Source of the DNA: Chamaesiphon minutus PCC 6605
Lineage (GTDB): Bacteria; Cyanobacteriota; Cyanobacteriia; Cyanobacteriales; Chamaesiphonaceae
Direction: 5' to 3'
Assembly: GCF_000317145.1 (NCBI RefSeq)
Contig: NC_019697.1
Span: 4,600,886 to 4,664,885, forward strand
DNA length: 64,000 nucleotides
The notes under the pieces: model-generated
Database searches by the model: none
Told to the model about the DNA's origin: nothing
What the model saw: only the letters and a program-made list of their open reading frames with translations
Made by a program: the position numbers and the translations under genes
In this document: positions 1,287-61,951 of the stretch, piece after piece
Layout of the letters: the number at the start of each line of letters is the position of its first letter
Position numbering within the stretch: position 1 is the stretch's first letter

Positions 1287-1312
1287 TTTGGTGAAGAGTG
1301 GATAGTGGATAA

Positions 1313-1406
1313 CGATTTGCGTAACTCCTACGGAGTGGCTGTGCCTCCGGCAGGCTACGCCAACGCCAACGTCGGGAAACCCGACGGTTTAGCAAATCAA
1401 GACAGT
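1313..1406 (+). repeat. 94-bp palindromic repeat, copy 1 (left of ccmK4)
   Basis: This segment is the exact reverse complement of 2006-2099; all 94 positions match by eye. It contains nested palindromes: ACTCC-TACGGAGT near 1325, a GCCTCCGGCAGGC-like stem near 1343, and CGTCGGG-AAA-CCCGACG at 1370-1386. It begins GATTTGC and ends GCAAATC, like short terminal inverted repeats. It is non-coding, resembles a REP- or MITE-like mobile repeat, and with copy 2 brackets ccmK4. The central CGTCGGG hairpin recurs at 38777-38793. Confidence 0.9.
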
Positions 1407-1582
1407 GGATAGTGAAGCTATCGGTTAGTGTGGGCAACTATGGCAATATCTAAACTGCTAAATCCTGACTAAGTTATTAATCATTTAATTTATTTGTCTT
1501 CTCCCAACTCCCCGCTTCCCGCTCCCCGCTTTTAGTAAATCTAGTATGCGATCGATAATTTATTTTAGGAGTTTATATTTAA

Positions 1583-1930
1583 ATGGCTGATTCCATGAGT
1601 TCTCAACAGGCAGTTGGTTCGATCGAAACCAAAGGGTTTCCCGCTGTCTTAGCCGCTGCTGATGCGATGCTCAAAGCAGGACGCGTCACTCTAGTCGGAT
1701 ACCTTAGGGCTGGTAGTGCCCGTTTCACCGTCAACGTGCGCGGTGATGTCTCCGAAGTCAAGCAAGCAATGGCGGCTGGTGTCGATGTGGTCGAAAAAGT
1801 GTACGGTGGAACCTTAGAATCTTGGGTGATCATCCCGCGTCCGCATCCCAACGTTGAGCGAATTTTGCCAATTGGTTATACTGAAGAAGTCGAAGAATTT
1901 CGCGCTCAAGTTGAAGGTCGCATTAGCTAG
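1583..1930 (+). CDS. ccmK4: Carboxysome shell protein CcmK4 (BMC-H)
   Basis: 115 residues with one BMC domain: [39 protein letters not shown], and [12 protein letters not shown]. The RAGSARFT and WVIIPRPH segments are the CcmK4 signature. CcmK4 hexamers, with CcmK3, are thought to tune metabolite passage through the beta-carboxysome shell facets. An AGGAG site lies at 1567-1571, 11 bases before the ATG. The gene stands alone between two perfect inverted copies of a 94-bp repeat, so it may have its own promoter. A C-rich heptamer tract (CCCCGCT variants) lies just upstream at about 1507-1533. Confidence 0.9.
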
Positions 1931-2005
1931 TAGCTAGCACTCATCTAAAGGATAGTTTCGATGTTAGCCGATCGCCATCGTAGAGCAAGGCTAGGTTCGC
2001 TATCT

Positions 2006-2099
2006 ACTGTCTTGATTTGCTAAACCGTCGGGTTTCCCGACGTTGGCGTTGGCGTAGCCTGCCGGAGGCACAGCCACTCCGTAGGAGTTACGCAAATCG
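2006..2099 (-). repeat. 94-bp palindromic repeat, copy 2 (right of ccmK4)
   Basis: Perfect inverted partner of 1313-1406. The 599 bp between the copies contain ccmK4 and its leader. The identity of the two copies points to recent duplication or gene conversion. In principle they allow inversion of ccmK4, or a very long stem when single-stranded. Confidence 0.9.
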
Positions 2100-2158
2100 C
2101 TATCTACTCTGTTCACTATCCACTAAATTTACCCTTGGGGAGACTCTCACAGCCAGTC

Positions 2159-11667: not shown

Positions 11668-12516
11668 TTAAAATTCGTAGTCAGGATTTCCAACCTGAAA
11701 AACGCTCAAGCCCAGATCTCGCCACATTCTACACACTTTTGGTCGATCGTCGATGACGGCGATTACATTGTATCGATCTCGAATGTGAAAATAGTATAAT
11801 TCTGATTTCAGAATATCATCTGGACGGTTGTCGTCAGCCGGACGCATGAATAGATCTTTGTAGTTAATATTGTGTTCTTTTAACCACGCTACAGTCAGGT
11901 CGTAGCAGACACTCGATCGACCGGATAAGAGTACGATATCGGTATCTCGTCCTAATTTTGCGATCGTCTGTGCCACTGTCGGATTGAGTCCATCTTCACC
12001 GACGCGCTCCCATGCAAACGGCGAACGACTCAGATTGATGGCTAAGGTACCATCGATATCGACTAAATAACAATCGGGTAATTGCGGATCTCGCGGTGGT
12101 GGCGATGCGGGTGCGTGTAAATAGTCATAATACATCTGCTCGATCGCTTGTTTCCCTACCGAATTCGATCTGACTAAATCGCGGCGGATACACTCAGCTA
12201 GCGGTACGTCAGTAAAATCTTGGATCTTCAGTTCGGCTCCATATTGCGCGGCTAATTCCGTCGCTCGGCGCAGATGGACGGGATTGAGATTGGTATCCGA
12301 CCAAATTACCGAATAACCTTGCTCGAAGTAATGCTCCGTCAATAAATCGCGGACTTTAATAATCCGTTTTTCGCGTTTATTCGTACCGCTCAACTGCAAT
12401 CTCAGATCGTCTTTGCACAAGTTCGCAGTCTCAGGATATTTCTGGATATATTCTTTCGCCCAAGTGGTCTTTCCGCTTGCGGGTAAGCCTTTGGTCAGGA
12501 TAAGTTTAAGGGACAT
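11668..12516 (-). CDS. T4 Pnkp-like polynucleotide 5'-kinase/3'-phosphatase
   Basis: 282 residues with two catalytic modules in the same order as phage T4 PseT/Pnkp. The kinase module has a P-loop GLPASGKTTW (Lys16, Thr17), the KDDLR segment (Asp36-37, Arg39) and SDTNLNP. The phosphatase module is of the HAD type, with DIDGTLA (Asp153, Asp155), a later LLSGRSS and IDDRPKVCRMWRDLG. In T4 the enzyme heals tRNA ends cut by a host anticodon nuclease, converting 2',3'-cyclic phosphate and 5'-OH into ligatable ends. The partner ligase is the next gene upstream on the same strand, so this is a two-gene RNA repair module. Motif match is strong throughout. Confidence 0.9.
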   Translation of the reverse strand: MSLKLILTKGLPASGKTTWAKEYIQKYPETANLCKDDLRLQLSGTNKREKRIIKVRDLLTEHYFEQGYSVIWSDTNLNPVHLRRATELAAQYGAELKIQDFTDVPLAECIRRDLVRSNSVGKQAIEQMYYDYLHAPASPPPRDPQLPDCYLVDIDGTLAINLSRSPFAWERVGEDGLNPTVAQTIAKLGRDTDIVLLSGRSSVCYDLTVAWLKEHNINYKDLFMRPADDNRPDDILKSELYYFHIRDRYNVIAVIDDRPKVCRMWRDLGLSVFQVGNPDYEF

Positions 12517-12653
12517 AAGGGAGATTGGATTTTGGATTTTGGATTTTGGATTGCGGATTGCGGATTGCGGATTTGAGAGTAGAGAAGAGCCTAAAGCCTA
12601 AAGCCTAAAGCCTAAAACCTAAAGCCTAAAGCCTAAAGCCTAAAACCTAAAGC
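12517..12653. repeat. Two heptamer arrays between the RNA repair genes
   Basis: Next to the kinase start the + strand carries GATTTTG and GATTGCG heptamers (about 12526-12575). Next to the ligase stop it carries CCTAAAG heptamers (about 12588-12650). Read along the genes, the G-rich strand (TTTAGGC) follows the ligase stop and a C-rich strand precedes the kinase start. The arrays fill the whole gap of the operon. Confidence 0.85.
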
Positions 12654-13619
12654 CTATTCCCTATCCCCTAACTGAAACGGACGCTCATAGCTGGGTTTGA
12701 TGAGTTTCCAGATGACTTGGCTGTAGTCTCTACCGTCTAACATCAGAAATAAGACGCCAGGATATTTCTGGGTTTGAAAATACATGGCTGTTTGGCGTCT
12801 GTCACCTAGATCTTTGAAGGCTTGCTGGCATTCGGTTTCAATTTCGCGATACTTTGTCTCTAATTCGAGTTTGGTATCTTTGACCCAGTTGTAGAATTCA
12901 TCGGGTACGGAATCGAGAAACTGTTCTATGTTCTGGTTTTGGCTGAGGCATTCCCAAATATCTTTGGCTTGAACTCGGGTAATAATCCGATGCAGTCGGA
13001 CATAATCGGCGAGTTTGTATTTGAGCCGAAAGCCATTTGGCCATTTGAGAATGAAACCCTCTTGGTTGGCTAGTTCGGATTGATTTGCCTCTACAGATTC
13101 AATCCATTCGGGTAAAGTCGTCGCTGGATAAGTTTGCGATCGATCGATCCAGTTTACCTGCGCTAGGTCTAATTCCGCGCCCGTGTGAGTATTAACAGCC
13201 GCTAATAAGACTAATCGCTGCGCCGTGCCATAATCTACAACGATCCGATTGCTAGGGTAAATAATTTCAAATAAATAGGTATGCGCTCGATCGAGTTTAT
13301 CTAAATCGGCTGCATAATTAGCAAATAATACCCGTGCCATTTGTGCTTGTTCTGAGGCAAAACTGCCTCTTGACGCCACTTCCCATCGACCTTGATAGTA
13401 AAACAGAATAATTAACGATCCATCGAGCTTCTCGTAGATATCTGGTACGCCATCTGGCAGCCGACCCTGATGTTCGCTGAGATTAAAAAACTTTGGTAAA
13501 GGTCTAGCGATCGGGTGATAATTATCATCTAATACTAACCCCCGACAGTGCAGTGTCGCAGCCACCCAATAGCGATCGAATTGCGCCTTGGCGGTATAGT
13601 TATAAATCGTCAGCGGCAA
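12654..13619 (-). CDS. T4 Rnl1-type RNA ligase, 5' end disrupted by an IS element
   Basis: The visible 321 residues match T4 RNA ligase 1 block by block: LHCRGLVLD, LPKFFNLSEH, the nucleotidyl motif KLDGSLI (the Lys becomes adenylylated), ASRGSFASEQAQMA, FEIIYPSNRIVV, EGFILKWPNG and RLKYKLADYVRLH. It seals 3'-OH/5'-phosphate RNA ends and is paired with the kinase/phosphatase downstream. The natural N-terminus is missing. The frame continues upstream only to 13691, where sequence of the inserted element brings a stop. Removing the element (13672-14815) and one AAT joins it to 14818-14847 and restores a 348-residue frame. The TTG at 13619 is only the first usable start inside the remnant. It may be inactive, or made as an N-truncated protein. 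Confidence 0.85.
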   Translation of the reverse strand: MPLTIYNYTAKAQFDRYWVAATLHCRGLVLDDNYHPIARPLPKFFNLSEHQGRLPDGVPDIYEKLDGSLIILFYYQGRWEVASRGSFASEQAQMARVLFANYAADLDKLDRAHTYLFEIIYPSNRIVVDYGTAQRLVLLAAVNTHTGAELDLAQVNWIDRSQTYPATTLPEWIESVEANQSELANQEGFILKWPNGFRLKYKLADYVRLHRIITRVQAKDIWECLSQNQNIEQFLDSVPDEFYNWVKDTKLELETKYREIETECQQAFKDLGDRRQTAMYFQTQKYPGVLFLMLDGRDYSQVIWKLIKPSYERPFQLGDRE

Positions 13620-14847: not shown

Positions 14848-15165
14848 GCTACTTTAAATGTTAGATTTTTGGATACATCTAACTTACTCGATCGACCTTC
14901 CCCCCAGCCAACCTTCGATTTAATCGCTCAAATACTTGCCGTAACTGGGATACAGGCAAGAGCGATCGTTCCACTCAGGGGATACCCCGAACTATTCACA
15001 ATTTAAGGTGGAGCCTCCGATTAAAATCGGGACTGGTGATGCAAAGTCCGCCTACGCGGACTGATTAATTAGTCCGCGTAGGCGGACTTTGCAACATTAG
15101 CGGGGGTTTCCAACCCCACGACAGCATCAACTATCAACTATCAACTATCAACCATCAACTATCAA
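14848..15165. repeat. Intergenic with 22-bp-arm palindrome and CAACTAT heptamers
   Basis: 15041-15092 is a perfect inverted repeat with 22-bp arms (GCAAAGTCCGCCTACGCGGA...) and an 8-base loop GATTAATT. A closely related copy with 19-bp arms is at 61814-61859, and both are preceded by GCCTCCGATTAAAATC. From 15123 to 15168 six CAACTAT-type heptamers run into the moxR stop codon. No gene seen. Confidence 0.85.
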
Positions 15166-16110
15166 CTACCTTGGCACAGGCACTCGATCGATCGCACCTG
15201 CAATCACAGTATCTATTTCCAAACCATCTAATTGAGCTTCGGGACGTAATACTAACCGATGGCGCAATAAGGGGATAGCAACTTGTTTGAAATCATCGGG
15301 TACTACCATCTGACGTCGATCGAGCCATGCGGCAGATTTACTAGCATGTAACCAGGCAATAGCAGCGCGGGGAGAGGCTCCCAGACTGAGATCGGGGTGT
15401 TGGCGCGTTTGTTGAACTAGTGCGAGCAGATAATCGATCGCATTTTCGTTGACGGTGACTTGTTGTACCGATTTGCGTGCAGCCAGACAGTCGGCGACGG
15501 TGGCGACAGGTTGCAATTTTTTGGCGTCTACTCTGGCTCCTGGCTGAGTCAGTCGTGCGCTGGCTAGCAATTCGCGTTCGGCACTTGCGGCGGGATAATC
15601 GACGATGAGCTTAAATAAAAATCGATCGAGTTGCGCTTCGGGTAATGGATATGTGCCTTCAAATTCGAGAGAATTTTGAGTCGCGAGCGTCCAAAATAGC
15701 TCTGATAACACCATCGTCTCGCCATCTAGGGTAACTTGCCCTTCCGCCATTGCTTCGAGTAGTGCCGATTGGGTTTTGGGTGGGGTGCGGTTGATTTCGT
15801 CAGCCAGCAGAATCTGCGTAAAAATTGGCCCTTTTTTCAGGATAAATTCTTGACTCTTAAGATCGAAAATATTCGTACCCAAAATGTCTGCGGGTAAAAT
15901 ATCTGGAGTGAGTTGAATCCGCCTAAAGTCTGCCTGAATTAGTTGCGATAGTACCCTGGCAAGCATCGTTTTTCCAGTTCCAGGTACTCCTTCCAAAATA
16001 ACATGACCGCCCGTTAGCAGAGCAATAAGAAGTTGTTTTGTCGTCTCTTCTTGTCCGAATACAACTTCTTGTAAAGCATTGCCGAGTCGATCGAATATTT
16101 CGTGTGTCAT
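15166..16110 (-). CDS. MoxR-family AAA+ ATPase
   Basis: 314 residues with the complete MoxR architecture: Walker A GVPGTGKT, Walker B ILLADEINR, a PPKTQSALLEAMAEGQVT segment, sensor 1 in WTLATQNSLEFEGTYPLPEAQLDRF and sensor 2 in LGASPRAAIAWLHASKS. MoxR ATPases act as chaperones that mature membrane or metal-containing protein complexes. It is the third gene of a minus-strand run DUF4129, DUF4350, MoxR, a combination often seen with membrane-associated DUF58 proteins; no DUF58 gene is present here. The target is unknown. Confidence 0.92.
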   Translation of the reverse strand: MTHEIFDRLGNALQEVVFGQEETTKQLLIALLTGGHVILEGVPGTGKTMLARVLSQLIQADFRRIQLTPDILPADILGTNIFDLKSQEFILKKGPIFTQILLADEINRTPPKTQSALLEAMAEGQVTLDGETMVLSELFWTLATQNSLEFEGTYPLPEAQLDRFLFKLIVDYPAASAERELLASARLTQPGARVDAKKLQPVATVADCLAARKSVQQVTVNENAIDYLLALVQQTRQHPDLSLGASPRAAIAWLHASKSAAWLDRRQMVVPDDFKQVAIPLLRHRLVLRPEAQLDGLEIDTVIAGAIDRVPVPR

Positions 16111-16251
16111 TTTAGGGGATAGGGGATAGGGGATAGGGGATAGGGGTTAGAGGAGAGGTTAATGGGTAATGGAATGGGTAATGGGTAATGGAATTTGGAC
16201 GCAAGCGTCCTCTTATTCCCTATCCCCTATCCCCTATCCCCTATCCCCTAA
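16111..16251. repeat. Inverted heptamer arrays with central GGACGC hairpin
   Basis: By the moxR start the + strand reads AGGGGAT heptamers (16113-16146) and ATGGGTA heptamers (to ~16190). By the DUF4350 stop it reads CCCTATC heptamers (16212-16251). A perfect GGACGC-AA-GCGTCC palindrome sits between them at 16197-16210. The C-rich array overlaps the last codons of the DUF4350 gene. Confidence 0.85.
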
Positions 16252-17425
16252 GCTGTCGATCGATCGTGCGGACTTTTGTCAACCAGCTTGTTAATTCGGC
16301 AGGTGTCAGGCGTCGTGCTGCCGTGGTTAATTGTAAAACAAAGCGGAGATCTTCGGTCGGTAATTTAGTCTGATTTTCCCAGGCGGTAATTAATGTCTGT
16401 GGTTCTACCAATCGATCTTTGCCCAACCCTAATTTTTGTTGCCAAGCCAAGCGTTCGGCTCTACCGATATTTTGGACTACAAATTCACTGCTGTTGGCTT
16501 GGCTGAGGACTCCAGCAAGTGCTTGAATATATGCTTCGCTATTATCAATTTCTGGCTGTTTGGGGATAATAACTTTACCAAATCTACGATTTTGCTGCCA
16601 CACTAATATTAATATACCCAGCAGGATATTCATTAAGACAACAATTAAGGGCGTACCAGCTAGATATTCTAGAGCATCGCCATCTGTTTCGCGATCGAGC
16701 GATTCCGTTCGATCTTGTCGAGCATTAGTCGCTGATTTGGGTTTGCGTTCTACATAGCCATGAATATATTCATCTACCAATACTTGCTTCTGCTCTTTAG
16801 TAACTAGTTCGGCGAGTAATTCATAATTCGGTCGAAAATCTTGATAGGCATTGGCTGCTAAATATGATGTCGTTGCTATATAAAGCGACCCTTTACCGAT
16901 TCTAAATCCATAAACAACACTACCAGCACGATCTTTCAAATTTGCCTCGCCAAAAGCATCTTTAGGCAAGCCAATTCTGGCAAGATCGGCTCTAAATCTC
17001 CGAGTAGTTTCAATTCGCACATTGCCTTGAGGACTCTCTAGATCCGATCGAAATGGAATTTCCCAAGCTGGTGCTGTTACACCTAAAATAACGAGCGTGT
17101 TGCCACTACCGATCCATTTTTTCTGGAGATCGCTTAGTTCCAATCGTTCTAATTGAGGATTGACTTGCAGGAGTGTTGTTTCCGATTGGTATTGAGGCTC
17201 GCGTGTAAGTTGGAGAAACGATCGTTGCCAACGTTGGATTTTAATCCCACGTTCGGACATCATGCCATACCATTCACTATAACCATTTGCCGCGATACTA
17301 TAACTCGATCCTTGCTGTCTGCCATCCCCACTCATAGCACTGACGATCGTAATTAAAACGATCGCGATCGTTCCTAGCAACAATAATTGCCAATACTGTT
17401 TTAATAACTTCTTAAAATCTGTCAT
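16241..17425 (-). CDS. DUF4350 domain membrane protein
   Basis: 394 residues. One membrane segment lies at residues ~12-31 (QLLLLGTIAIVLITIVSAM) and a second near ~255-275 (IVVLMNILLGILILVWQQ), with a globular DUF4350 domain between them (LVILGVTAPAWEIPF, DRAGSVVYGFRIGKGSLYI). The C-terminal ~110 residues are cytosolic and helical. It sits between DUF4129 and MoxR genes on the same strand, as is usual for this set. The role is unknown but presumably in a MoxR-dependent membrane complex. Confidence 0.82.
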   Translation of the reverse strand: MTDFKKLLKQYWQLLLLGTIAIVLITIVSAMSGDGRQQGSSYSIAANGYSEWYGMMSERGIKIQRWQRSFLQLTREPQYQSETTLLQVNPQLERLELSDLQKKWIGSGNTLVILGVTAPAWEIPFRSDLESPQGNVRIETTRRFRADLARIGLPKDAFGEANLKDRAGSVVYGFRIGKGSLYIATTSYLAANAYQDFRPNYELLAELVTKEQKQVLVDEYIHGYVERKPKSATNARQDRTESLDRETDGDALEYLAGTPLIVVLMNILLGILILVWQQNRRFGKVIIPKQPEIDNSEAYIQALAGVLSQANSSEFVVQNIGRAERLAWQQKLGLGKDRLVEPQTLITAWENQTKLPTEDLRFVLQLTTAARRLTPAELTSWLTKVRTIDRQLRG

Positions 17426-26363: not shown

Positions 26364-26594
26364 ATTAAGGCAGAGAGCAGAGAGCAGAGAGCCGAAGGCA
26401 GAAGGCAGGCTTTAGGCTTGAGGAGATAGGAAGTAAGAGCGACCAAACAGAGGTCAGCACCGATAACCCAATCCTGTAAATCCTGTAAATCCTGTAAATC
26501 CTCTCAATCATAGTCTGCCGTTAGGATCGACACAGGTCAGCACCGACAACCTAATCCTGTAAATCCCGTAAATCCTCTAAATCATAGTCTGCCT
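26364..26594. repeat. Tandem repeats: GCAGAGA heptamers and a duplicated block with 9-mers
   Basis: After the pentapeptide gene come GCAGAGA heptamers (about 26371-26392) and a TTTAGGC word. A block at 26451-26519 is repeated at 26534-26593. Each copy holds tandem 9-mers TCCTGTAAA (three in the first, two in the second), so copy number differs. This is the only non-7-bp tandem repeat I see among the intergenic arrays. No gene. Confidence 0.8.
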
Positions 26595-33837: not shown

Positions 33838-34078
33838 GGAGAAGGGAGGCTTTAGGCTTTAGGCTTTAGGGCGGAGGGAGGCTTTAGGCTTGGGGGAGGC
33901 TTTAGGCTTTAGGTGTTAGGCTTTAGGGTGGGAGGAGGCTTTAGGGTGGAGGTTTTGAGATTGGGGATGAAATTGTCTCTCTAAACCCTAACCCCTTATG
34001 CTTAACCCCTAACACCTAACACCTAAAGCCTAAAGCCTAACACCTAAAGCCTAAAGCCTAAGGCCTAACACCTAATTC
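33838..34078. repeat. Inverted TTTAGGC / GCCTAAA heptamer arrays (cheA/MCP gap)
   Basis: The half next to the cheA start is TTTAGGC-type on the + strand (33843-33950, interrupted by G-rich variants). The half next to the MCP stop is the complement, CCTAAAG and CCTAACA (33990-34075). The two halves could pair into a long stem. The array runs into the last codons of the MCP gene. Confidence 0.88.
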
Positions 34079-38105: not shown

Positions 38106-38230
38106 GAGGTAGTGGCTAGTGGATAGTAGATAGTGGATAGTGAATAGTAAATAGGATTTGCAGGTTAAGATAAGTTTCGATCGCTTTGCGAGCCACTATC
38201 CACTATTTTCACTATTCACTATTCACTAAT
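38106..38230. repeat. Inverted heptamer arrays (cheY/cheW gap)
   Basis: Next to the cheW start the + strand has GTGGATA/GTAGATA heptamers (38106-38150). Next to the cheY stop it has the complementary CACTATC/TCACTAT heptamers (38193-38226). The centre (38155-38190) is unique sequence. Confidence 0.82.
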
Positions 38231-42873: not shown

Positions 42874-44685
42874 ATGCAAAAAAATCCGATGAGACTGTCC
42901 AAAAGCTTATTTGTCACACTTCGCGAAGAACCCGCCGAAGCCGAAATTCCCAGCCATAAATTGCTATTGCGGGCGGGATACATTCGCCGGATTGGGAGTG
43001 GCTTGTATGCTTATTTACCCCTGATGTGGCGCGTATTGACGAAGGTACGGCAGATTGTCAAAGAAGAAATGGATGCGACAGGCGCGCAAGAATGTCTGCT
43101 CCCCCAACTGCAGCCCGCCGAATTATGGCAACAGTCGGGACGCTGGGATACATATACCCAGGCGGAGGGAATTATGTTCGCCTTTACCGACAGACAAAAG
43201 CGGGAAGTGGCTTTAGGGCCGACGCATGAGGAAGTCGTGACGGCTGTAGCGCGCGATCTGATTAAATCTTATCGTCAGTTGCCCCAACATCTGTATCAAA
43301 TTCAAAGCAAATTTCGCGATGAAATTCGGCCTCGGTTTGGGTTGATGCGCGGGCGAGAATTTATCATGAAAGATGGTTATTCTTTTCATGCCGACGCTGA
43401 GAGTCTCAAGGCTACTTATAATGACATGCACGATGCTTATTGCAAGATGCTGACGCGCTGCGGCTTGAAATATCGGGCTGTAGATGCAGACTCAGGCGCG
43501 ATCGGGGGTTCCGGTTCGCAGGAATTTATGGTGCTGGCGGCTGCGGGTGAAGATGATGTAATGTTTACGGCGGATGGTGAATATGCCGCCAATGTGGAGA
43601 AGGCTGTTTCGCTAGCTCCTGAAGCTGTGGCGTCACCTTTTACTAGTTACGAAATCAAGGATACACCCAATACCAATTCGATCGATAAACTTGTTAAATT
43701 TCTCGAATGCGATCGAACATCGATCGTCAAGAACCTGATTCAGCAAGCTGTTTATGACAATGGCAAGACAGTTTTAGTATTAATTAGCATTCGGAGCGAC
43801 CGCGAGGTCAATCAGGTTAAATTAACCAATGAATTAGTTAAATTAGCTCCGAATTATGGAGCTAAAACAGTCATTGCCTTAGAAGTACCAGATGGCGTCG
43901 CGATCGACAAATGGGCATCCAAACCATTACCCCTCGGTTATATCGCTCCCGATTTGAGCGATGAATATATCCAATCTAGTCCTAACGTCCATCCGCAGTT
44001 CCTCCGCATCGTCGATGAAACCGCTGCCAGTCTGACGAACTTTATCACCGGGACGAACGAACCTGGCAAGCATGTTGTCGGTGCGAATTGGAATACCAAT
44101 TTCCCCATCCCAGCAGTTAAAGTCGATATTCAGAAGGCTCTAGTTGGCGATCGCGCCATTCACGATCCGACTCAAGTCTTAGAAACCGCACGCGGTATCG
44201 AAGTCGGCCATATTTTTCAGCTCGGAACCAAATATTCCCAAGCCATGGGTGCCACCTTTACCAACGAACAGGGCGAGGAGCAGCCATTAGTGATGGGCTG
44301 TTATGGCGTGGGCGTATCGCGTCTGGCCCAAGCTGCCGTCGAACAATCTTACGATAAAGATGGGATTATTTGGCCTGTAGCGATCGCGCCTTATCATGCG
44401 ATTATCTGCGTGCCCAATATTGCCGATGCCCAACAAATGGAGGTCGCAGAACGCCTCTACAGCGAGTTAAATCAACTAGGGGTCGAAACTATCCTCGACG
44501 ATCGCGACGAGCGAGCTGGGGTCAAATTCAAAGACGCAGATTTAATCGGCATCCCCTTCCGGATCGTCACTGGTCGATCGCTTAAGGATGGTAAAGTAGA
44601 GGTCGTCCAACGCGCTACGAAACAATCGCAAGATATTGCCGTCGAGAATGTTGGAGCGACGATTAAAGACTGGATCGGGAATTAG
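42874..44685 (+). CDS. proS: Prolyl-tRNA synthetase (bacterial type)
   Basis: About 603 residues. Class II motifs: [21 protein letters not shown] (motif 1 region), [25 protein letters not shown] (motif 2), and [15 protein letters not shown] (motif 3). The YbaK-like editing insertion spans ~220-385 (YVDR-free segment with VSLAPEAV to ILLSIRSD-like sequence). The anticodon-binding domain closes the protein ([18 protein letters not shown]). I chose the ATG at 42874, which has GGTGAG upstream; the ATG at 42889 ([21 protein letters not shown]) is equally likely. It charges tRNA-Pro. Confidence 0.95.
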
Positions 44686-44885
44686 GCTTTAGGCTTTAGG
44701 CTTTAGGCTTGAAATTTAGAGGGTAAATAGTTTATGGCAAAGTGAATGTACTTTTTCTTGAATACCAACGTCTTGTTTGAGATCGCATCGATTTCTTAGC
44801 CTAGAGCTTAGCACCGAGAAAACACGAAACTAAATCTCAAATCCATCCCCTAAAGCCTAAAGCCTAAAGCCTAACACCTAAAAAA
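44686..44885. repeat. Inverted TTTAGGC / CCTAAAG heptamers (proS/DUF2993 gap)
   Basis: TTTAGGC heptamers (44684-44709) follow the proS stop. CCTAAAG heptamers (44849-44880) precede the next ATG. Between is ~135 bp of unique sequence. Confidence 0.85.
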
Positions 44886-50122: not shown

Positions 50123-50764
50123 TTACAACACCCCTTTAGAGCTAGGAATGCTACCCATCCGCCGCAGGTCGAGTTCTGTAGCCATCCGCATCGCTCTGGC
50201 AAAAGATTTGAATGTAGCTTCGATAATATGGTGGGAATTGATGCCATCTAATTGCCGAATGTGTAGCGTCATCAAACTGTGGTTGACCACTGCTACAAAA
50301 AATTCGCGAACTAATTGTGTATCGTAAGTTCCGACGCGTTGGGTGGGAATCTCTAAACCATAACTGAGGTGGGGACGACCGGAAAAATCTAGAGCCACTT
50401 GGACTAACGCTTCGTCTAATGGTGCAACGAAATGACCGAAGCGGACGATTCCTTTGCGATCGCCTAAAGCTTTGCCCAAAGCCATACCCAAGGTAATACC
50501 CACATCCTCATTCGTATGGTGATCGTCAATTTCGATATCTCCTGTAGCGGTAATGTGGAGATCGAATAAGCCGTGGGACGAGATTTGGTGGAGCATGTGA
50601 TCGAGAAATGGTACGCCTGTCTGCGCGTGACAGACCCCCGTACCATCGAGATCGATCGTCACGGTGACATCGGTTTCACCAGTGCGACGATGAACTGTCG
50701 CAACTCGATGTTCGGGTGGCAAATTAGCAGCAAGTTTGAGGTGAGGAGCGATCTCTGTGGGCAT
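50123..50764 (-). CDS. hisB: Imidazoleglycerol-phosphate dehydratase
   Basis: 213 residues, typical single-domain bacterial HisB. Manganese and substrate motifs: [43 protein letters not shown] and the C-terminal [19 protein letters not shown]. It catalyses the sixth step of histidine synthesis. The start is the ATG at 50764 ([16 protein letters not shown]); the frame extends upstream through translated GGATGGGT heptamers, which is not real protein. No other his gene is adjacent. Confidence 0.96.
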
Positions 50765-51096
50765 AAGGGTGGATGAGTGGATGGGTGGATGGGTGGATGC
50801 TTCGACTTCGCTCAGCAACAGGGTGGATGGGTAGATGGGTAGATAGGTGGATAGGTAGATGGGTAGATGGGTAGATGGGTAGATGGGTGGAAGCTTACGT
50901 TCAAAATTACTATCCCCTATCCCCTATCCCCTATCTACTATTCACTATCTACTATCCACTATCCATTACTAGCCTCTACCCTCTGATTCTATCACTTTGG
51001 CTAATCCTCACTAATTGTCTAGATTCTGGGTGTAAGCTTTAGGCCGAAATTTGGGAATGATAGAAAGGTAATCTTCAGATACAACGGAATCGGTAG
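50765..51096. repeat. Divergent heptamer arrays between hisB and the PatA-type gene
   Basis: G-rich GGTGGAT and GGTAGAT heptamers (50768-50893) lie on the hisB side. C-rich CCCTATC and CACTATC heptamers (50911-50964) lie on the side of the + strand gene. The first array is interrupted by a GCTTCGACTTCGCTCAGCAA unit (50800-50819) whose reverse complement is at 55434-55453. No gene. Confidence 0.85.
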
Positions 51097-52317: not shown

Positions 52318-53352
52318 ATGGTAGATAAGCAGAATCTGATCTTTGGTTTGCATGGTTCGCTGTATGGAATTAATACTACCTTTGTCAGAGAAATCTGCTG
52401 GCTGCCAGAGTTGTACTCGTTGGCAACCGCACCAGCAGATATCATCGGTATTTTTAATTGGCGATCGCATTTAGTACCAGTATTACATTTAGATTTACGT
52501 TTTGGGCGCGGTTTTTCTGGCTGCAATATGACCGATCGAGTCATTGTGGTTGAGGATCGGGGCACTTATATCGGGATTGTCGCCCATCAGGTGTATGACG
52601 TGCGTGAGTTGAAGCCTCAACCGCTCGATCTCGACCTGATTCAAAGTCGCCAATCGGCACTCGATCGCCAGTTTATCATCGGGATCGCTCAAAGTGATGA
52701 CAGTGTGGTTACTTGTCTCGATCTCGATCGCTTGATTCGCGAACCAGATGCGGTTGCCGCTCTAGATAACGAGTCTCCGCCGATCGCTGGAGCCGCAGCA
52801 GACTTTTACAGTCGGTGTTGTCCTGAAGCTACGGTTGACGAGCGAGCTACCTTCGCCACTCGTGCCGCCCAACTCAAAACTTCTGTCATCCAGGCACAGA
52901 GTAACGAACGGGAGGAGGGCGTCTTAGTCGTCCAAATCGGTGCCGAATCGATCGGATTGCCCCTCGAACTCATCATTGATGTCGATACCGTCGATCGATT
53001 TACGATATCGCCAGTACCAGTTGCACCACCCGCTCTGCTAGGACAAATCAACTGGCGGGGCGAAATTTTACCAGTGGTAGAACTAGGCGGCATTTTGCAA
53101 ATTTTGCCCGTGCTACCCCGTCAAGAAATCGTCATCATCCAGCTCGGTGATATCAAGCTGGGGATTGGAGTCGATCGGATTTTTGATGTCTTCTATCTAT
53201 CCACCGCTCGGATTGAGGAGCTACCGCTCTCAGCAAGCGATCGACTGCGCGGTTATTTGCGAGGAGTTACTAAGTATGGTGAGGGTTTAATGTATTTAGT
53301 CAAACTTCAAGATTTGGTAGCACGCGAATTTTTACCTCAGAGCGTAGCTTAA
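52318..53352 (+). CDS. Tandem CheW-domain protein, cluster B
   Basis: 344 residues with two CheW domains. The first (~1-150) has FGLHGSLYGINTTFVREICWLPEL, IIGIFNWRSHLVPVLHLDLRFG and YIGIVAHQVYDVREL. The second (~190-340) has VLVVQIGAESIGLPLELIIDVDTV, LLGQINWRGEILPVVELGGIL and LGIGVDRIFDVFYL. A double CheW can bridge two receptor or kinase arms at once and might fit with the two different MCPs downstream. No receiver domain, so it is not CheV. Confidence 0.9.
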   Translation: MVDKQNLIFGLHGSLYGINTTFVREICWLPELYSLATAPADIIGIFNWRSHLVPVLHLDLRFGRGFSGCNMTDRVIVVEDRGTYIGIVAHQVYDVRELKPQPLDLDLIQSRQSALDRQFIIGIAQSDDSVVTCLDLDRLIREPDAVAALDNESPPIAGAAADFYSRCCPEATVDERATFATRAAQLKTSVIQAQSNEREEGVLVVQIGAESIGLPLELIIDVDTVDRFTISPVPVAPPALLGQINWRGEILPVVELGGILQILPVLPRQEIVIIQLGDIKLGIGVDRIFDVFYLSTARIEELPLSASDRLRGYLRGVTKYGEGLMYLVKLQDLVAREFLPQSVA

Positions 53353-53365
53353 AGGATGAAGGTAG

Positions 53366-53405
53366 GGTTTAGGCTTTAGGCTTTAGGCTTTAGGTTTTAG
53401 GCTTT
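53366..53405 (+). repeat. TTTAGGC heptamer array after the double cheW
   Basis: About five TTTAGGC-type heptamers, with one variant TTTTAGG, starting 14 bases after the stop. Part of the strand-polar repeat family. Confidence 0.85.
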
Positions 53406-55336: not shown

Positions 55337-55488
55337 GCTTTACGCAGACAAGAGGAACGGGGAAAGGGCGATAGGCTTTGGAACTATGTTCCCCATCCAC
55401 CAATTACCCCTTACCCCTTACCCATTCACCCTGTTGCTGAGCGAAGTCGAAGCATCCACCCATCCACCCATCCACCCCTCTCCCTAAC
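55337..55488. repeat. G-rich then C-rich heptamers between the two MCP genes
   Basis: A TTAGGC word and GGGGAAAGGG follow the first MCP stop (55337-55369). TTACCCC and CATCCACC heptamers precede the second MCP start (55398-55482). A GTTGCTGAGCGAAGTCGAAG unit (55432-55451) is nearly the reverse complement of one near hisB. Confidence 0.8.
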
Positions 55489-57294
55489 ATGCTGAATTCC
55501 TTTAGAACCAATTTTCAAGACAAACTCAACAGCCTGCCTTTTAAAGCCAAAGCAACTGCGATCGCGGTATTGCTCTCACTCTTGCCCGTATTGGGGGTTG
55601 GTGGTTTGGCTTACTTCATCTCTAGCTCCAACCTGATCGAATCAGAGACAGACAACGAAAAATCTTCGGCAACCGCACTGTCGGACGCGCTCGCTCGCTT
55701 TATTGGTATTCGGATTAGAGACGCTAAATCCCTTGCCGATTTGCCATTCTTCAACAACGCAAATATTGCCAAAGTTGTATCTCAGGCCGAACAAGAAGAC
55801 TTTTTGAGTAATTACGTCGATCGATATAAATTTTATGACAGTGCCGTGATTTTCGATCTCAATGGTAATCCGATTGCCGCCTCCAAAGGAAGTAAGCTGG
55901 ATAACCATGCCAATCGCGAGTATTTTCAGGCCGTACTAAAAACTGGTAAACCTTATGTTAGTAAAGTTGAAACTTCTAAATCAACCGAGAAATCATCGAT
56001 TTACTTTGTCGCGCCAGTTAAAGATAGTATCACTGGACAGATGAGCGCGATCGTCAGATTGCGATTGCCAGTTGCTTCGCTCAAACCAATTGCCGAAGTA
56101 TATGGCGTTAACAACGCTCAGTGGCACATTATCGATAAAAACACCAGTAAATTTATTCTGGCCTCGGAAGAAGCGCAAATCGGTCGCGATACTAGTGATT
56201 TTGCGCGCTACGAGCAGTTAAAAAATAGCGATAAACCCCAGTCGGTAGTTGATGTCGATCGGCTGAATAACGCCAACCAGTTAATCTCTGTTGTCAGTCT
56301 TCCTAATAGTGAAGAGTTAGGGCAGAGTAATCTGGGCATCATCATTGCCAAAGATACCAAGTTGATTGAGGCTAAAGCAAACGCAGTTCTGATCGTATTG
56401 CTAGTGGGGATGTTGGTAGCAGGTGGTACGACTGTGGGCTTATCCCTACTGGTGGGAAATCGGGTTACCAAGTTTATCCAACAAATGGCCGAATCGATCG
56501 TCAACTCTTCTAGTGCGATCGTCAATACGGTCGAAGTGCAAGAAGTCAACGTTAACATGCAAGCCAACTCCGCGATCGATACCAGTGCTACAGTCAACGA
56601 GCTAGGTGCGGTCTCCTTCCAATCTGCCGCTCAAGCAGAAGCCGCCGCCAATGGTGCCAGACAAGCACTCGCCCTCTCTGAAGATGGAACTAGAGCGGTA
56701 CAAGAGACACTCCAAGGGATGTCGGGACTTCGCGACAAAGTAGACGCGATCGCCAATCAAATCGTCACCCTCAGCGAACAAACCGGACAAATTACCGTGG
56801 TATCTGACTTGGTGGCAGATTTGGCAAGCCAAACCAACATGCTCGCACTCAACGCAGCGGTTGAAGCAGCTCGCGCCGGAGAACAGGGTAAAGGTTTTAG
56901 TGTAGTTGCCGATGAAATTCGTAAACTAGCCGACCAAAGTAAAAAATCTGCCGATAAAATTAACGCTCTAGCCGAAGATATTCAAACAGCGATCAACCGC
57001 ACGGTAATGGTAACCGATGAAGGTACCAAAACTGTAGACGAAGGGATCGATCTGGCTCGATCGACCGCAGCTACCTTTGCTGGGGTGACAGACGCGGTAA
57101 ATAACGTATTCTTGAACTCCCAACAAATTTCGACTAGTGCCAAACAACAAGCGGTCTCGATTCAGCAAGTACTCAGTTCGATGACCAATATCTCACAAGG
57201 CTCTCAAGAAAGCGCGGTCGGTATGCACCAAGTGAAGATGACCACCAGGGAGTTGACGCAGGTAGCGGATGAGTTGAAGGCTGCGGTGGTCTAA
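55489..57294 (+). CDS. Methyl-accepting chemotaxis protein 2, cluster B
   Basis: 601 residues, collinear with the preceding MCP, so a tandem duplicate. Membrane segment ~23-45, dCache-like periplasmic domain ([39 protein letters not shown]), second membrane segment ~300-322, no HAMP, signalling domain with tip [34 protein letters not shown]. The canonical Asn is present, unlike in MCP 1. Both receptors probably sense small molecules in the periplasm; the ligands are unknown. Confidence 0.93.
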
Positions 57295-57504
57295 GCTTTA
57301 GGCTTTAGGCTTTAGGCTTTAGGCTTTAGGCTTTAGGCTTTAGGCTTTAGGCTTTAGGCTTTAGGCTTTAGGCTTTAGGCTTTAGGCTTTAGGCTTTAGG
57401 CTTTAGGCTTTAGGCTTTAGGCTTTAGGCTTTAGGCTTTAGGCTTTAGGCTTTAGGCTTTAGGCTTTAGGCTTTAGGCTTTAGGCTTTAGGCTTTAGGCT
57501 TTAG
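57295..57504 (+). repeat. 30 perfect tandem copies of GCTTTAG
   Basis: 210 bp made of exactly 30 head-to-tail GCTTTAG heptamers without a single variant, beginning on the base after the MCP 2 stop codon. It is the longest array in the window. Perfect homogeneity indicates recent expansion or strong concerted change. Confidence 0.98.
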
Positions 57505-57564
57505 ATCTTAGTAAAAGAAAACCTAGAGTCTTTTGAGAGAATTCAAGTTGGGTTGAGATGAATT

Positions 57565-57936: not shown

Positions 57937-57956
57937 CTATAAAGATTACAAACAAC

Positions 57957-58033
57957 CTAACCCCTAAAGCCTAAAACCTAAAGCCTAAAGCCTAAAGCCC
58001 AAAGCCCCCTCTACCCTCTACCCCCTACCCCCT
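57957..58033. repeat. CCTAAAG and TACCCCC heptamers before cheA
   Basis: CCTAAAG heptamers (57957-57998) and then C-rich CTACCCC/CTACCCT heptamers run up to the cheA ATG. They leave no standard ribosome binding site in the last 20 bases. Confidence 0.85.
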
Positions 58034-60925
58034 ATGTACATCGACGACGAAGAACTCCGAGGACTATACAAAACCTCAGCTACCGAACACATCCAAGCGA
58101 TCGAATCGGCATTGATGCAGTTGGAAAAACAGCCGCAAAATTCGGATGTATTAAAAGAGTTATTACGCTCGGCGCATACGCTTAAGGGTGATTCGCGGAT
58201 GCTAGGGGTTGAGGATGTCGAAACACTCGTTCACCAGATCGAAGAGTGCCTGATGCCGATCGATAAGGGTCAAGGGACGATGACTGAGCAATTGTGCGAG
58301 CGATTGTATTTGGGTTTGGATACCATCAAGAAACTCGCACATACTGCGGTATCTGGCGAACTTAATGATGTCAATATGTTTTATGTATTGGCTACATTAA
58401 TGGGCGATGTCGCTGCCGATGCCATTCCGTCTATCTCGGCATTACCGACAACAGCTACTCTACCCGATCGAGCGGCTAAAACCTTGGGTTTTGAAGATAG
58501 TAGCTTAGATATGGATGCTATTGTCTCTGATGATTGGGTGAATGCGGGTGATGACAGCTCTGTCTTCGATACGCCTAGAGATCTGTGGGTACACGAACGC
58601 CCTGCTCTACCGTTGCCAACCGAAGCAATGGAGATGCCACCTGGGACACCACCAGAGCCATCCCAACTCAAAACCAGCTTCTTGGAGTTAGCCGCAGATT
58701 TATTTCCAGCAGAAGATTCAACTTTACCGCCGTTGGATCGTCAGACAGTCTTAAACGACTTCACTATACTGCCGGGTACGTCACAGAGCGAAGATCTGCC
58801 GAGCCAGACGCCTGCTGACTATCTGCTGTTTGCCCCAGACGATAACTTTACATTAATTCCGAGTACAAACGAGATTGGCGATCGACAGCTCGATCTAGAG
58901 GAGCGGGCTTTGTCCGATACTGGCTTCCCGCTGTTCGATCCTCTCTCTGTAGACTTGCCAACCGCTCGGTATGACTCTAGCACTGAAGATGATGCCTTGT
59001 TCTCGGCTTTTGACAACCTTCTAATGCCACTGGAAGAAGAGATCCCAGCGGAGGAATTCTCCACCTTAGCGGATCGCCCAGAGCCACAGCCACCAGTCGA
59101 GGCGAAGATCGCACCGCCAAGTGTCACCGCACCCAAAGTCCCAACTGCTCCAGCCACCAATCTCGGCGACGAGCGCATCGACACAATTCGAGTCGATGCC
59201 AAACAGTTAGATGCCTTGATGGGGCAATCTGGTGAAATTAATGTCATCAACCAGCAAATTGCTACTAGGTTACTCGATCTAGATACCTTGCTCGAACTTT
59301 GGGAAAATGGCAGCCGCGATTATCAGCATCTGCAAAACTTTATCCAGCAAAATCCTTCCCAATTATCCCTATATCAACAATTGAGTCACCTCGATCGTCA
59401 GTGGGCGCAGATGGGAGCTTTAATTAGTAAGTTCAAAAAATCGATCGGTGCCGACAGTTCTAGATTAGAACTAGTTACCTCCGCCATAGATTCGGGCGTC
59501 CAAAAGCTCAGACTATTGCCGCTATCGACGATTTTGAATCTTTTTCCTCGGATGGTGCGAGACTTAGCCAAAACCCAATCTAAAGAAATTAATTTCGCGA
59601 TCGAAGGTGGCGATCTACTCCTCGATAAACGGCTCTTAGAAGAGATCAAAGACCCGTTGATGCATATTCTACGAAATGCGATCGATCATGGCATTGAGAC
59701 GCCCTTAGAACGCCAGCAGAACGGTAAATTGGCCGCTGCAACTCTGATAATTCAAGTCCGCCAAACTGGCAACCAAACCACGATCGAGATCCTTGACGAT
59801 GGGCGAGGGTTGGACTTACAACGGATTAAAGCGACCGCAATTAAGCGGGGACTGCATACCAAGGAAGAATTAGATGCGATGAGTGTCGATCGCATCCAAT
59901 CGCTAATCTTTGCTTCGGGCTTTTCTACCCGCGCGCGGGTGACGGAGCTGTCCGGACGAGGGGTGGGCTTAGATATCGTCAAGACAAATATCGAACGCAT
60001 TAAAGGCTCAGTCGATGTGGAATCATCACCCGATCGTGGGTGTACGTTCCGCATCGTCCTCAGTCACGCGATCGGTAGCTCGCAAGTGATGATGGTCGAA
60101 GTCCGCCACCATACCTACGCCATCCCCGTTGAATATGTCGATCGGATGTTGCTGGTAAACAAAGCGGAAATCTTTGCGCTCAGTGGTACTCCTACCACTC
60201 AGATTAACGGGCAAACGACGACAGTGGCTTGGTTGGCCGATTTGCTCGACCTCCCCGCGCTCGCCCCCGATTCCCCAGGAGAACTAACTCGTACTAGCAA
60301 ATCGATTGCTTGCCTGCTGCTTCAATCGGGACGACAAAAATTAGCACTGTTGGTCGATCGGATCGAAGATCGCCAACTAGTGACGATCGAGTCGCCCCAT
60401 CCCTTGCTCCACAATGTCCCCCATCTTGCTGGGGCGACAATTTTGGGGACGGGGGAAGTCTGTCTGGTACTCAATCCCCTCGATTTGTTTGCCACTGCTG
60501 GGGGCAATCGTCCGATCGGTTCGACAACCACTGCGGCAACGACACCAATGTTTGCGACTCAAGCTCCTGCCATTCTCTTGGTAGAAGACTCACTTGTAAT
60601 TCGCACGCAGATGACGCGGATTCTCCAGGGGGCTGGCTACCGCGTCACAGTCGCCAATGACGGTTTGGATGGTTGGGAAAAACTCCAAGCCGAGCAATTC
60701 GATCTGGTCGTTTCCGACGTCGAAATGCCGCGCTGGGGCGGTCTCAAACTCACCACTGAGATTCGCAATCATGCTGACTATCAGCATCTCCCAATCGTCT
60801 TGGTGACGACACTCTCCCAATCAGTCGATCGCGATCGTGGCTTTGAAGCTGGTGCCACCGCCTATCTTACCAAAGGCGATTTTGACCAGCAACTCTTGCT
60901 CGATACGCTCAATCGGTTGATCTAG
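58034..60925 (+). CDS. Hybrid CheA histidine kinase (Hpt-HATPase-CheW-REC), cluster B
   Basis: 963 residues. Hpt with His48 in RSAHTLKGDSRMLG; a long acidic linker (~140-380) with no P2 domain; dimerisation helices ~385-500; kinase domain ~530-680 (N-box HILRNAIDHGIE, ILDDGRGLDLQ, GRGVGLDIVK); CheW-like ~680-820; receiver ~850-963 with phospho-Asp in DLVVSDVEMPRWGGLKL and the usual Lys in YLTKGDF. Same architecture as the cluster A kinase but shorter. It should phosphorylate its own receiver, the CheB protein and the stand-alone receiver next to it. Confidence 0.94.
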   Translation: MYIDDEELRGLYKTSATEHIQAIESALMQLEKQPQNSDVLKELLRSAHTLKGDSRMLGVEDVETLVHQIEECLMPIDKGQGTMTEQLCERLYLGLDTIKKLAHTAVSGELNDVNMFYVLATLMGDVAADAIPSISALPTTATLPDRAAKTLGFEDSSLDMDAIVSDDWVNAGDDSSVFDTPRDLWVHERPALPLPTEAMEMPPGTPPEPSQLKTSFLELAADLFPAEDSTLPPLDRQTVLNDFTILPGTSQSEDLPSQTPADYLLFAPDDNFTLIPSTNEIGDRQLDLEERALSDTGFPLFDPLSVDLPTARYDSSTEDDALFSAFDNLLMPLEEEIPAEEFSTLADRPEPQPPVEAKIAPPSVTAPKVPTAPATNLGDERIDTIRVDAKQLDALMGQSGEINVINQQIATRLLDLDTLLELWENGSRDYQHLQNFIQQNPSQLSLYQQLSHLDRQWAQMGALISKFKKSIGADSSRLELVTSAIDSGVQKLRLLPLSTILNLFPRMVRDLAKTQSKEINFAIEGGDLLLDKRLLEEIKDPLMHILRNAIDHGIETPLERQQNGKLAAATLIIQVRQTGNQTTIEILDDGRGLDLQRIKATAIKRGLHTKEELDAMSVDRIQSLIFASGFSTRARVTELSGRGVGLDIVKTNIERIKGSVDVESSPDRGCTFRIVLSHAIGSSQVMMVEVRHHTYAIPVEYVDRMLLVNKAEIFALSGTPTTQINGQTTTVAWLADLLDLPALAPDSPGELTRTSKSIACLLLQSGRQKLALLVDRIEDRQLVTIESPHPLLHNVPHLAGATILGTGEVCLVLNPLDLFATAGGNRPIGSTTTAATTPMFATQAPAILLVEDSLVIRTQMTRILQGAGYRVTVANDGLDGWEKLQAEQFDLVVSDVEMPRWGGLKLTTEIRNHADYQHLPIVLVTTLSQSVDRDRGFEAGATAYLTKGDFDQQLLLDTLNRLI

Positions 60926-61140
60926 GATTTAGGTGTTAGGCTTCAGGTTTTAGGCAGAAGGCTTTACATTTTAAGACGCTAGCGTCTTAAAATCCCTAAA
61001 GCCTAAAGCCTAAAGCCTAAAGCCTAAAGCCTAAAGCCTAAAGCCTAAAGCCTAAAGCCTAAAGCCTAAAGCCTAAAGCCTAAAGCCTAAAGCCTAAAGC
61101 CCAGTCCCTAACCATTAACCCCTATTCCCTAATTAATCAC
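60926..61140. repeat. Inverted heptamer arrays with a 26-bp palindrome at the centre
   Basis: TTTAGG/TTAGGC words follow the cheA stop (60928-60964). A perfect 26-bp palindrome occupies 60968-60993 (ATTTTAAGACGCT and its complement). Fifteen perfect CCTAAAG heptamers fill 60995-61099. C-rich sequence continues to the next ATG. Confidence 0.93.
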
Positions 61141-61569
61141 ATGGCTCCTACTAAAGTTTTGATTGTTGAAGATTCTCCCGTCGCGATGGAAGTACTCCAA
61201 CGTCTATTTAAAAGCACTCCCGAAGTTGAAATTGTCGGCACCGCTCGCAATGGACAAGAAGCTCTGGCAATGATTCCTCGGCTCAATCCGACGGTGATTT
61301 GTACTGACTTCCACATGGAACCGATCGATGGATTGGAACTCACTAAACAAGTCATGGCCAACTACCCACGTCCGATTCTCGTCTTGAGCAACTCTGTCAA
61401 AGCTGACGATACCAAAAATGTCTTCGCACTCTTGCAAGCCGGAGCGTCTGATATTTATCCCAAACCGCTCGGTGGTGAATACGCTGAGTACGAAGCCATC
61501 AAACAAAAGATCCTCTCGAAAATCAAGCTCCTCTCTGGGATGAGTGTCAAAGCTAGACCCCTAAACTAG
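61141..61569 (+). CDS. Stand-alone CheB-type receiver domain
   Basis: 142 residues: a receiver domain (KVLIVEDSPVAMEVLQRLF; phospho-Asp in VICTDFHMEPIDGLEL; LVLSNSVKADDTKNVFALLQAGASDIYPKPLGGEY) plus ~20 residues, and nothing more. It is highly similar along its whole length to the receiver of the CheB encoded next (shared NGQEAL/NGREAL, VICTD, EPIDGLELTK, PKPxGGEY). It is evidently a duplicate of cheB that lost the esterase domain. It could compete with CheB for phosphate from CheA, acting as a phosphate sink or a CheY. Confidence 0.9.
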   Translation: MAPTKVLIVEDSPVAMEVLQRLFKSTPEVEIVGTARNGQEALAMIPRLNPTVICTDFHMEPIDGLELTKQVMANYPRPILVLSNSVKADDTKNVFALLQAGASDIYPKPLGGEYAEYEAIKQKILSKIKLLSGMSVKARPLN

Positions 61570-61951
61570 GCTTTAGGCTTTAGGCTCTAGGCTTTAGGCT
61601 TTAGGCTTTAGGTTTTAGGTTTTAGGCTTTAGGCTTTAGGCTTTAGGCTTTAGGCTTTAGGCTTTAGGCACGAGGTATGAGGTGATGGGTAATAGGCAAC
61701 GTCGCTACCGTGTTGACGAGCAAAAGACGATTGTAGTCTTTCTCTGTTACCCATTACCCATCAATACTTCTCAGTTAAGTTAGCCTCCGATTAAAATCTG
61801 GGCTAACAGTATTAAGTCCGCCTACGCGGACTAATTAACTAGTCCGCGTAGGCGGACTTCGCATCACTAGCTACGACTTCAGTCGTCAGCAGTTCTTAAC
61901 CAAGAAGTATTGCATTCCCCATTACCCATTACCCATCTACCCACCTACCCG
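61570..61951. repeat. TTTAGGC array, palindrome and C-rich heptamers before cheB
   Basis: About fourteen TTTAGGC heptamers with a few variants (61568-61669) follow the receiver gene. 61814-61859 is an inverted repeat with 19-bp arms around AATTAACT, related to that at 15041-15092; both follow GCCTCCGATTAAAATC. ATTACCC and CTACCCA heptamers (61916-61950) precede the cheB start. No gene. Confidence 0.9.

Follow-up and report, generated by a model that had tools for sequence, protein, structure and literature searches.

A strand rule for tandem heptanucleotide arrays at gene ends of Chamaesiphon minutus, with signs that it persists while repeat units change

Short tandem repeats of many different sequences stand at the gene ends of a 64,000-nucleotide stretch of the Chamaesiphon minutus PCC 6605 genome (bases 4600886-4664885 of the main contig; hereafter the window), and a sequence-only reading claimed that nearly all of them have a period of 7 bp, with the G-rich strand after stop codons and the C-rich strand before start codons. 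The question that this locus raises is whether such a strand rule is real, and what could maintain it when the repeat units themselves differ. The genome of 6.76 Mb (6,761,765 bases) comprises three contigs, the main contig having 6,284,095 bases, and was sampled through 40 evenly spread 20-kb stretches of the main contig, which together with the window make up 864 kb. The 645 genes of this sample were called by our own hexamer ORF finder, with no annotation used. The main array set was obtained by scanning gene gaps at a score cut-off of at least 14, with shuffled gaps as the control, and each array was compared with itself reversed in place.

The claim of a dominant period was borne out by the sample. 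In the 864 kb, 100 period-7 arrays are intergenic and 3 are coding; a further 15 intergenic arrays have period 8 and 26 have period 14, which is twice the unit, while each remaining period from 3 to 15 accounts for at most 4, and shuffled gaps gave zero arrays at the same cut-off. The gene gaps hold 103 period-7/8 arrays, which fall into 35 unit families, the largest being AGGCTTT (22/103) and the second of AGGGGAT type (11/103). Seventy-four of the 103 are at most 50 bp from an ORF end and 64 at most 20 bp, as against 40.2 (sd 4.3, maximum 55 of 2000 runs) when each array was placed at random in its own gap. As dispersed, mainly intergenic tandem units of 7 bases, these arrays answer to the description of the STRR heptanucleotide repeats of cyanobacteria. 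The latter, reportedly described by Mazel and colleagues in 1990, are said to share the period of 7, the intergenic location and the many dispersed copies, and to our knowledge no strand rule has been given for them.

Restricted to periods 7 and 8, the search found 27 arrays in the window, 24 of period 7 and 3 of period 8. Those described one by one are as follows (window positions, strand, feature):

12525..12573, minus: TTGGATT array (sense AATCCAA), 8 bp before the start of ORF 11668-12516 (minus)
12588..12656, minus: AGCCTAA array (sense TTAGGCT), overlaps the TAG stop of ORF 12654-13619 (minus)
15126..15168, minus: ATCAACT array (sense AGTTGAT), overlaps the stop of ORF 15166-16110 (minus), convergent gap
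16113..16150, minus: TAGGGGA array (sense TCCCCTA), 2 bp before the start of ORF 15166-16110 (minus)
16214..16250, minus: TATCCCC array (sense GGGGATA), overlaps the stop of ORF 16241-17425 (minus); common unit with 16113-16150, the two inverted relative to each other
26370..26408, plus: GCAGAGA array, 6 bp after the stop of ORF 25782-26363 (plus), convergent gap
33847..33870, minus: AGGCTTT array core, 37 bp before the start of ORF 30372-33809 (minus); degenerate repeats extend to about 33952
34003..34075, minus: TAACGCC array (sense GGCGTTA), overlaps the stop of ORF 34072-37452 (minus)
38110..38154, minus: TAGTGGA array, 58 bp upstream of ORF 37608-38051 (minus)
38208..38228, minus: TTCACTA array (sense TAGTGAA), 2 bp after the stop of ORF 38231-38593 (minus)
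44682..44710, plus: TTAGGCT array, overlaps the TAG stop of ORF 42874-44685 (plus)
44849..44881, plus: CCTAAAG array, 4 bp before the start of ORF 44886-45689 (plus); inverted partner of 44682-44710
50769..50799, minus: period-8 GTGGATGG array, 4 bp before the start of ORF 50123-50764 (minus), divergent gap
50910..50965, plus: CTATCCA array, mid-gap, 145/146 bp from both ends; scored as an exception
53363..53405, plus: TAGGCTT array, 10 bp after the stop of ORF 52318-53352 (plus)
55453..55477, plus: period-8 CATCCACC array, 11 bp before the start of ORF 55489-57294 (plus)
57295..57504, plus: GCTTTAG array, 30 perfect copies, directly after the stop of ORF 55489-57294 (plus)
57956..58034, plus: CCTAAAG then CCCTCTA arrays, ending at the start of ORF 58034-60925 (plus)
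60995..61101, plus: CCTAAAG array, 15.3 perfect copies, 39 bp before the start of ORF 61141-61569 (plus)
61567..61669, plus: TAGGCTT array, overlaps the TAG stop of ORF 61141-61569 (plus)
61913..61936, plus: CATTACC array, 15 bp before the start of ORF 61952-63004 (plus)

A period-9 array, AATCCTGTA, lies beside the GCAGAGA heptamers in their convergent gap (26470-26583), and the 18-base sequence GCTTCGACTTCGCTCAGC, present in 3 copies in the 864 kb, interrupts two separate leader arrays (50799-50816 and 55436-55453).

The strand rule at gene ends is real, strong and local. A period-7 search proposed for the whole genome, run here on the 864-kb sample with strand recorded relative to ORF ends, found a marked orientation bias: of the 74 arrays no more than 50 bp from an ORF end, 71 are richer in G than in C on the strand leading away from the ORF (p = 7e-18), whereas those farther away divide into 16 with the rule and 13 against (16/29, p = 0.71), namely 8:5 at 50-100 bp and 8:8 beyond 100 bp. 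"G-rich after the stop, C-rich before the start" thus amounts to a G-rich strand running outward from every ORF end, the direction of the gene being irrelevant. Near arrays obey in convergent (10/10), divergent (5/5) and tandem gaps (56/59), and at stops alone in 39 of 42 cases; 26 of the 29 unit families near ORF ends are without any exception, and the rule is stable at score cut-offs of 10, 12, 14, 18 and 25 and when either the window or the TTTAGGC-like units are left out. For the window itself, it had been claimed that there is no clear exception, which stands for 19 of 20 arrays within 50 bp (farther away, 5 obey and 2 are against) and fails for one at 57956-58007; this array, 19 bp downstream of a stop and 26 bp upstream of a start, abuts a start-side array and obeys relative to the start.

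The arrays could have copied a base skew already present in gene flanks, and array-free leaders are indeed A-rich and slightly C>G, with a G-C skew of about -0.11 in the last 30 bases before starts. However, the skew is about 0 after array-free stops, where arrays nonetheless divide 39:3, and arrays more than 50 bp away follow no rule; such passive inheritance is contradicted at stops and is very improbable overall.

The strand rule had been thought undescribed, which does not hold. In its accessible part, the study of Rehm et al. (2015; PMC4692102) states it for two heptamer types, with units GGGAATC and GGGGA(C/T)T, in three genomes (two Xanthomonas strains and Nostoc PCC 7120): G-rich heptamers, with a preference for four units, lie within 50 bp of stops (sense) and starts (antisense), the nearest ORF is the 5′ neighbour whatever its direction, and inverted pairs number 70 in Xcc and 75 in Xac. 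The arrays reported here agree in their period of 7, their dispersed intergenic location, the strand rule within 50 bp, which 71 of 74 follow in just this form, and the presence of some inverted pairs. They differ in that the own genome has 29 unit families near gene ends rather than the one unit type per genome of that account, pairs mostly differ in unit, orthologous ends keep polarity and not the unit, and a relative, G018, reverses the G sign in its main families (as judged against the same part of PMC4692102). Nor do the 35 families, with AGGCTTT (22/103) the largest, conform to GGGNATC or GGGGA(C/T)T units with quadruplex potential.

Other heptamers described so far are less similar. The TAACTGA direct repeats of marine Beggiatoaceae and some cyanobacteria are likewise mostly intergenic and oriented to starts, often ending 1 nt before the start, with the preferred start-facing orientation in 147 of 170 sets of a Beggiatoaceae genome; unlike the own arrays, they have another unit with equal G and C, and 24 Microcystis sets are without clear preference, according to the accessible part of that paper (MacGregor, 2015; PMC4679880). 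TAACTGA is absent from the 35 own-genome families. The GGGACCG elements of Geobacter metallireducens, at about 49 places, are also tandem heptamers but occur within genes as well, and no gene-end rule is noted in the part of the source available (PMC2700814). As far as our search shows, with most subscription literature outside it, the new observation is that many unrelated units obey the rule in one genome; no published account was found of unit turnover with kept polarity or of sign reversal, and these, together with the open-leader account given below, appear to be new within the same limits.

Same-strand genes had been said to be separated by inverted arrays that could fold into stems. Where a G-rich and a C-rich array share a gap in the 864-kb sample, the order is G...C in all 23 pairs, as would be expected if gene gaps were filled by a MITE- or REP-like mobile module whose inverted-repeat ends are G-rich. 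However, there is one array alone in 54 of the 78 array-bearing gaps; a common unit, at up to 1 mismatch, occurs in just 7 of the 23 pairs (shuffled mean 3.9, p = 0.054), the units of the other 16 being different; and the sequences between paired arrays, when compared, contain no common core such as a MITE or REP would have. Inverted arrays are therefore a minority arrangement rather than the usual separator, and stem folding as a general feature is not supported. A hairpin module was rejected on these three observations, and a mobile module, which had also been suggested, is hardly credible, since in addition the species mostly differ in unit at orthologous gene ends.

This last point comes from nine ends of window genes at which at least two of seven genus members carry an array, compared at a score cut-off of 9 (14 in the main set). 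Start-side arrays there are C>G in 20 of 20 cases, and stop-side arrays are G>C in 13 of 17, with 2 neutral and 2 C>G, one of the latter (in genome G007) having a unit identical to the array before the next gene's start in that genome. Units differ in 60 of 64 species pairs. Polarity is kept while units differ, which indicates, from these sequence comparisons, that polarity outlives the repeat unit.

Outside the own genome, the rule was followed through a named-genome set made up of loci around one gene only, trpS (80 genomes/loci, of which 20 hold arrays, all cyanobacterial), and through stretches of relatives. At the trpS loci 37 of 45 arrays near ORF ends obey, 4 are against and 4 neutral, and those far from ends divide into 10, 7 and 1. 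Near arrays obey in 24 of 26 cases in same-genus stretches; in same-order stretches 15 obey, 6 are against and 2 are neutral, and all 6 exceptions belong to G018. A 397-kb sample of that genome held 90 arrays, its stretches having been chosen around GGACAAA-unit matches, so that this family is over-represented; at near ends 28 arrays were with the G rule, 35 against and 7 neutral (n=70), the sign being mixed at stops (19:19, 5 neutral) and mostly reversed at starts (9 with, 16 against, 2 neutral; n=27). G-rich versus C-rich, which had been taken as the essential property, is thus of opposite sign in half of the gene-end arrays of this relative. Nevertheless, the main G018 families each keep one outward strand at starts and stops alike: GTCCTTT in 15/15 cases, GATAATT in 13/15 and GTCATTT in 12/13. 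Therefore, mirror symmetry per repeat family is the wider rule, and G>C is its commonest form. The outward strand of G018 is G+T-rich at 26 of 27 starts (1 neutral) and 31 of 43 stops. G+T versus A+C was considered as one universal rule and rejected: it holds in 69/74 own and 57/70 G018 arrays but at only 7/12 named starts, where G>C holds at 9/12. GGACAAA-type heptamers are extremely common in G018 (L233, L272-L291), with 1582 matches to three units at up to 3 mismatches, and several called starts read ...GACAA|ATGAC, so that the start codon may be in phase with the array.

The same families bear on the reading nearest to that of Rehm et al., in which the G-rich strand, as RNA after the stop or as template before the start, would form G-quadruplexes that pause the polymerase, end transcripts or protect 3′ ends. 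GGGAATC and GGGGA(C/T)T oligonucleotides form quadruplexes in vitro, as the accessible part of the paper reports (Rehm et al., 2015; PMC4692102), and the AGGGGAT type is the second largest own family. Against this, the largest family, AGGCTTT, has only GG, the one-G units AGTTGAT and AATTGAT occur and obey near ends, and the three G018 families are fixed outward without G runs. We regard a quadruplex function as improbable.

At starts, predicted RNA folding separates the two orientations. When arrays were folded together with 40 nt of coding sequence, 72 of 77 start-side arrays from four sets were more open as they stand than after flipping (pooled p = 5e-13): 28/28 in the own genome, 9/9 in the named genomes, 21/25 in G018 and 14/15 in other relatives. 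In 100-nt windows the values are -6.7 vs -23.4 kcal/mol flipped for own array starts and -10.0 vs -18.6 kcal/mol for those of G018; array-free starts differ in like direction by little (own -15.5 vs -17.1, G018 -19.2 vs -20.6), and array leaders are thus predicted to be far more open than ordinary ones. The orientation of G018 starts is predicted by openness (21/25), not by the G sign, and modelled openness is the only property common to genomes of either G sign. Real leaders also carry fewer NTG codons than flipped ones (own 0.04 vs 2.14, G018 1.44 vs 4.36). A Shine-Dalgarno-like motif is found at 0 of 25 own array starts vs 106 of 572 others (p = 0.013; on the plus strand only, starts other than ATG were left out), and G018 leaders, also open, carry AAGGA-like motifs (mean match 4.00 vs 2.88 flipped). 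Some cyanobacterial genes initiate without Shine-Dalgarno, via S1. Start-side polarity is best read, on these predictions, as selection for an open leader; the suggestion of translational insulation accordingly fits the start side, and the stop side is explained only in part.

At stops, 80 of 136 arrays fold more tightly in their real orientation than when flipped (p = 0.002), and among own arrays alone 27 are more closed and 15 more open (p = 0.12). Because flipping there also disrupts base pairs with neighbouring sequence, 100-nt flip comparisons overstate the effect at stops. Stop codons themselves are another candidate: arrays that enter ORF ends could survive only on the strand that carries stops in all frames, with the start-side rule being separate. 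In agreement, TAG is the stop of 20 of 35 array-bearing ORFs vs 198 of 610 others (p = 0.005), 34 of the 39 obeying own stop-side arrays have a stop on the sense strand, own arrays hold 5.90 stops in any frame vs 3.43 when flipped, and sense-strand stops exceed flipped ones in G018 and other relatives as well. The named genomes show the reverse (4.13 real vs 4.90 flipped), 23 of 25 own arrays obey even though stops occur in their units on both strands or on neither, and in G018 GTCCTTT, which is stop-free on both strands as read by eye, is oriented in 7 of 7 cases at stops. Stop-codon supply is quite unlikely as the cause, and together with folding it falls short of the strictness seen (39/42).

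The likeness of starts and stops, and of convergent, divergent and tandem gaps, is what a direction-blind DNA process would give. In such a process arrays would arise or persist with the G+T-rich strand pointing 5′ to 3′ out of whatever unit is protected, much as telomeres and Chi-like sites are oriented, and extension or processing of 3′ ends where gene gaps break could be one route. The uniform G...C order of the 23 pairs agrees with it, a fixed step of 7-8 whatever the sequence suits a polymerase-step process, and five arrays 45-75 bp from a tRNA, which is untranslated, all read G outward from it in own and relative genomes. However, the tRNA is the nearest called feature in only 3 of the 5, the other two having nearer ORF ends (48 and 53 bp) that they contradict; two arrays 152 and 169 bp from tRNAs read the opposite way, and the 40 bp on either side of each of the 54 own tRNAs are free of arrays (p = 0.002 vs the ORF-end rate). 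With so few arrays and 2 of 5 ambiguous, tRNA ends were discarded as a translation-free control. Outward growth was rejected as well, the gradient of expected sign being absent: the distal half is not more uniform in own (p = 0.16), named (p = 0.99) or other related genomes (p = 0.32), and in G018 it is more degenerate (p = 0.009), opposite to such growth. The start-side folding effect is not predicted by a DNA process either, and we consider it unlikely, though with some residual weight.

Based on these findings, we propose, at slightly less than even confidence, that slippage makes the arrays and changes their units quickly, and that their orientation is filtered or favoured by the needs of the RNA at each gene end. 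First, slippage would produce repeats with a 7- or 8-base step and turn their sequence over. Before a start, the sense strand would be the G-poor one (T-poor in G018), which would pair little with itself or with the early coding region, contain few false start codons, and act as an open, mostly Shine-Dalgarno-free leader. After a stop, the sense strand would be G- and T-rich, supplying extra stops, often the stop itself, and giving a somewhat more folded 3′ end. The gene ends would be mirror images because openness of one strand precludes openness of its complement, and the whole would resemble one G-outward rule at every ORF. In this account polarity, its confinement to gene ends, the change of units under constant polarity and the predicted openness at starts are observed; we infer both the role of selection on RNA and the cause acting at stops. 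Several observations weigh against it: in the own genome polarity is no less strict at stops than at starts, yet folding separates the orientations weakly at stops, convergent gaps obey in all cases with no start nearby, G018 has a mixed G sign at stops with 12 of 43 exceptions to its G+T rule, and the Microcystis TAACTGA sample shows no such preference in its 24 sets, in the accessible part of the source (MacGregor, 2015; PMC4679880). The mere purging of wrong orientations, judged from array density near to and far from ends (1.39, 0.059 and 0.119 per kb), was set aside because that comparison is confounded by arrays lying mostly in short gaps; random placing within the own gap, which still gives fewer arrays within 20 bp than observed, also weighs against purging alone.

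It is possible, though doubtful, that these arrays amount to a gene-end element defined by period and strand composition, not by sequence: a self-renewing open leader replacing the Shine-Dalgarno sequence, plus a closed trailer. Heptamer slippage would rewrite the letters and selection would hold the strand, so that lineages could choose different letters for the same job, with C-rich leaders in most and A-rich GGACAAA or AAATGAC leaders in G018. Cyanobacterial heptamer repeats have gone for decades without an assigned function, and a polarity that outlives its sequence is a sign of constraint invisible to sequence conservation. The account predicts that array orientation controls translation start, that copy number tunes it, and that orientation is lost where an open leader is unneeded; a stop-side rule independent of RNA folding would point instead to a direction-blind process at gene borders.

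An Rfam scan of the window gave no match at gathering scores. Short intergenic palindrome families, possibly REP- or MITE-like by their sequence, have window sites at 15046, 15072, 61816 and 61842; those of the TGGGCA(C/G)TGCCCA type number 17 each in the 864 kb, and GTCCGCCTACGCGGAC, which forms close inverted pairs in the window, numbers 14, all of them intergenic. The ORF at 12654-13619, flanked by heptamer arrays, matches the T4 RnlA RNA ligase model at a score below its cut-off (72 bits, the cut-off being 242; E 3.5e-20). Finally, a 105-bp repeat of 6.6 copies, with 35 codons per unit and perhaps TPR-like, occupies 41892-42581 within ORF 41104-42753.
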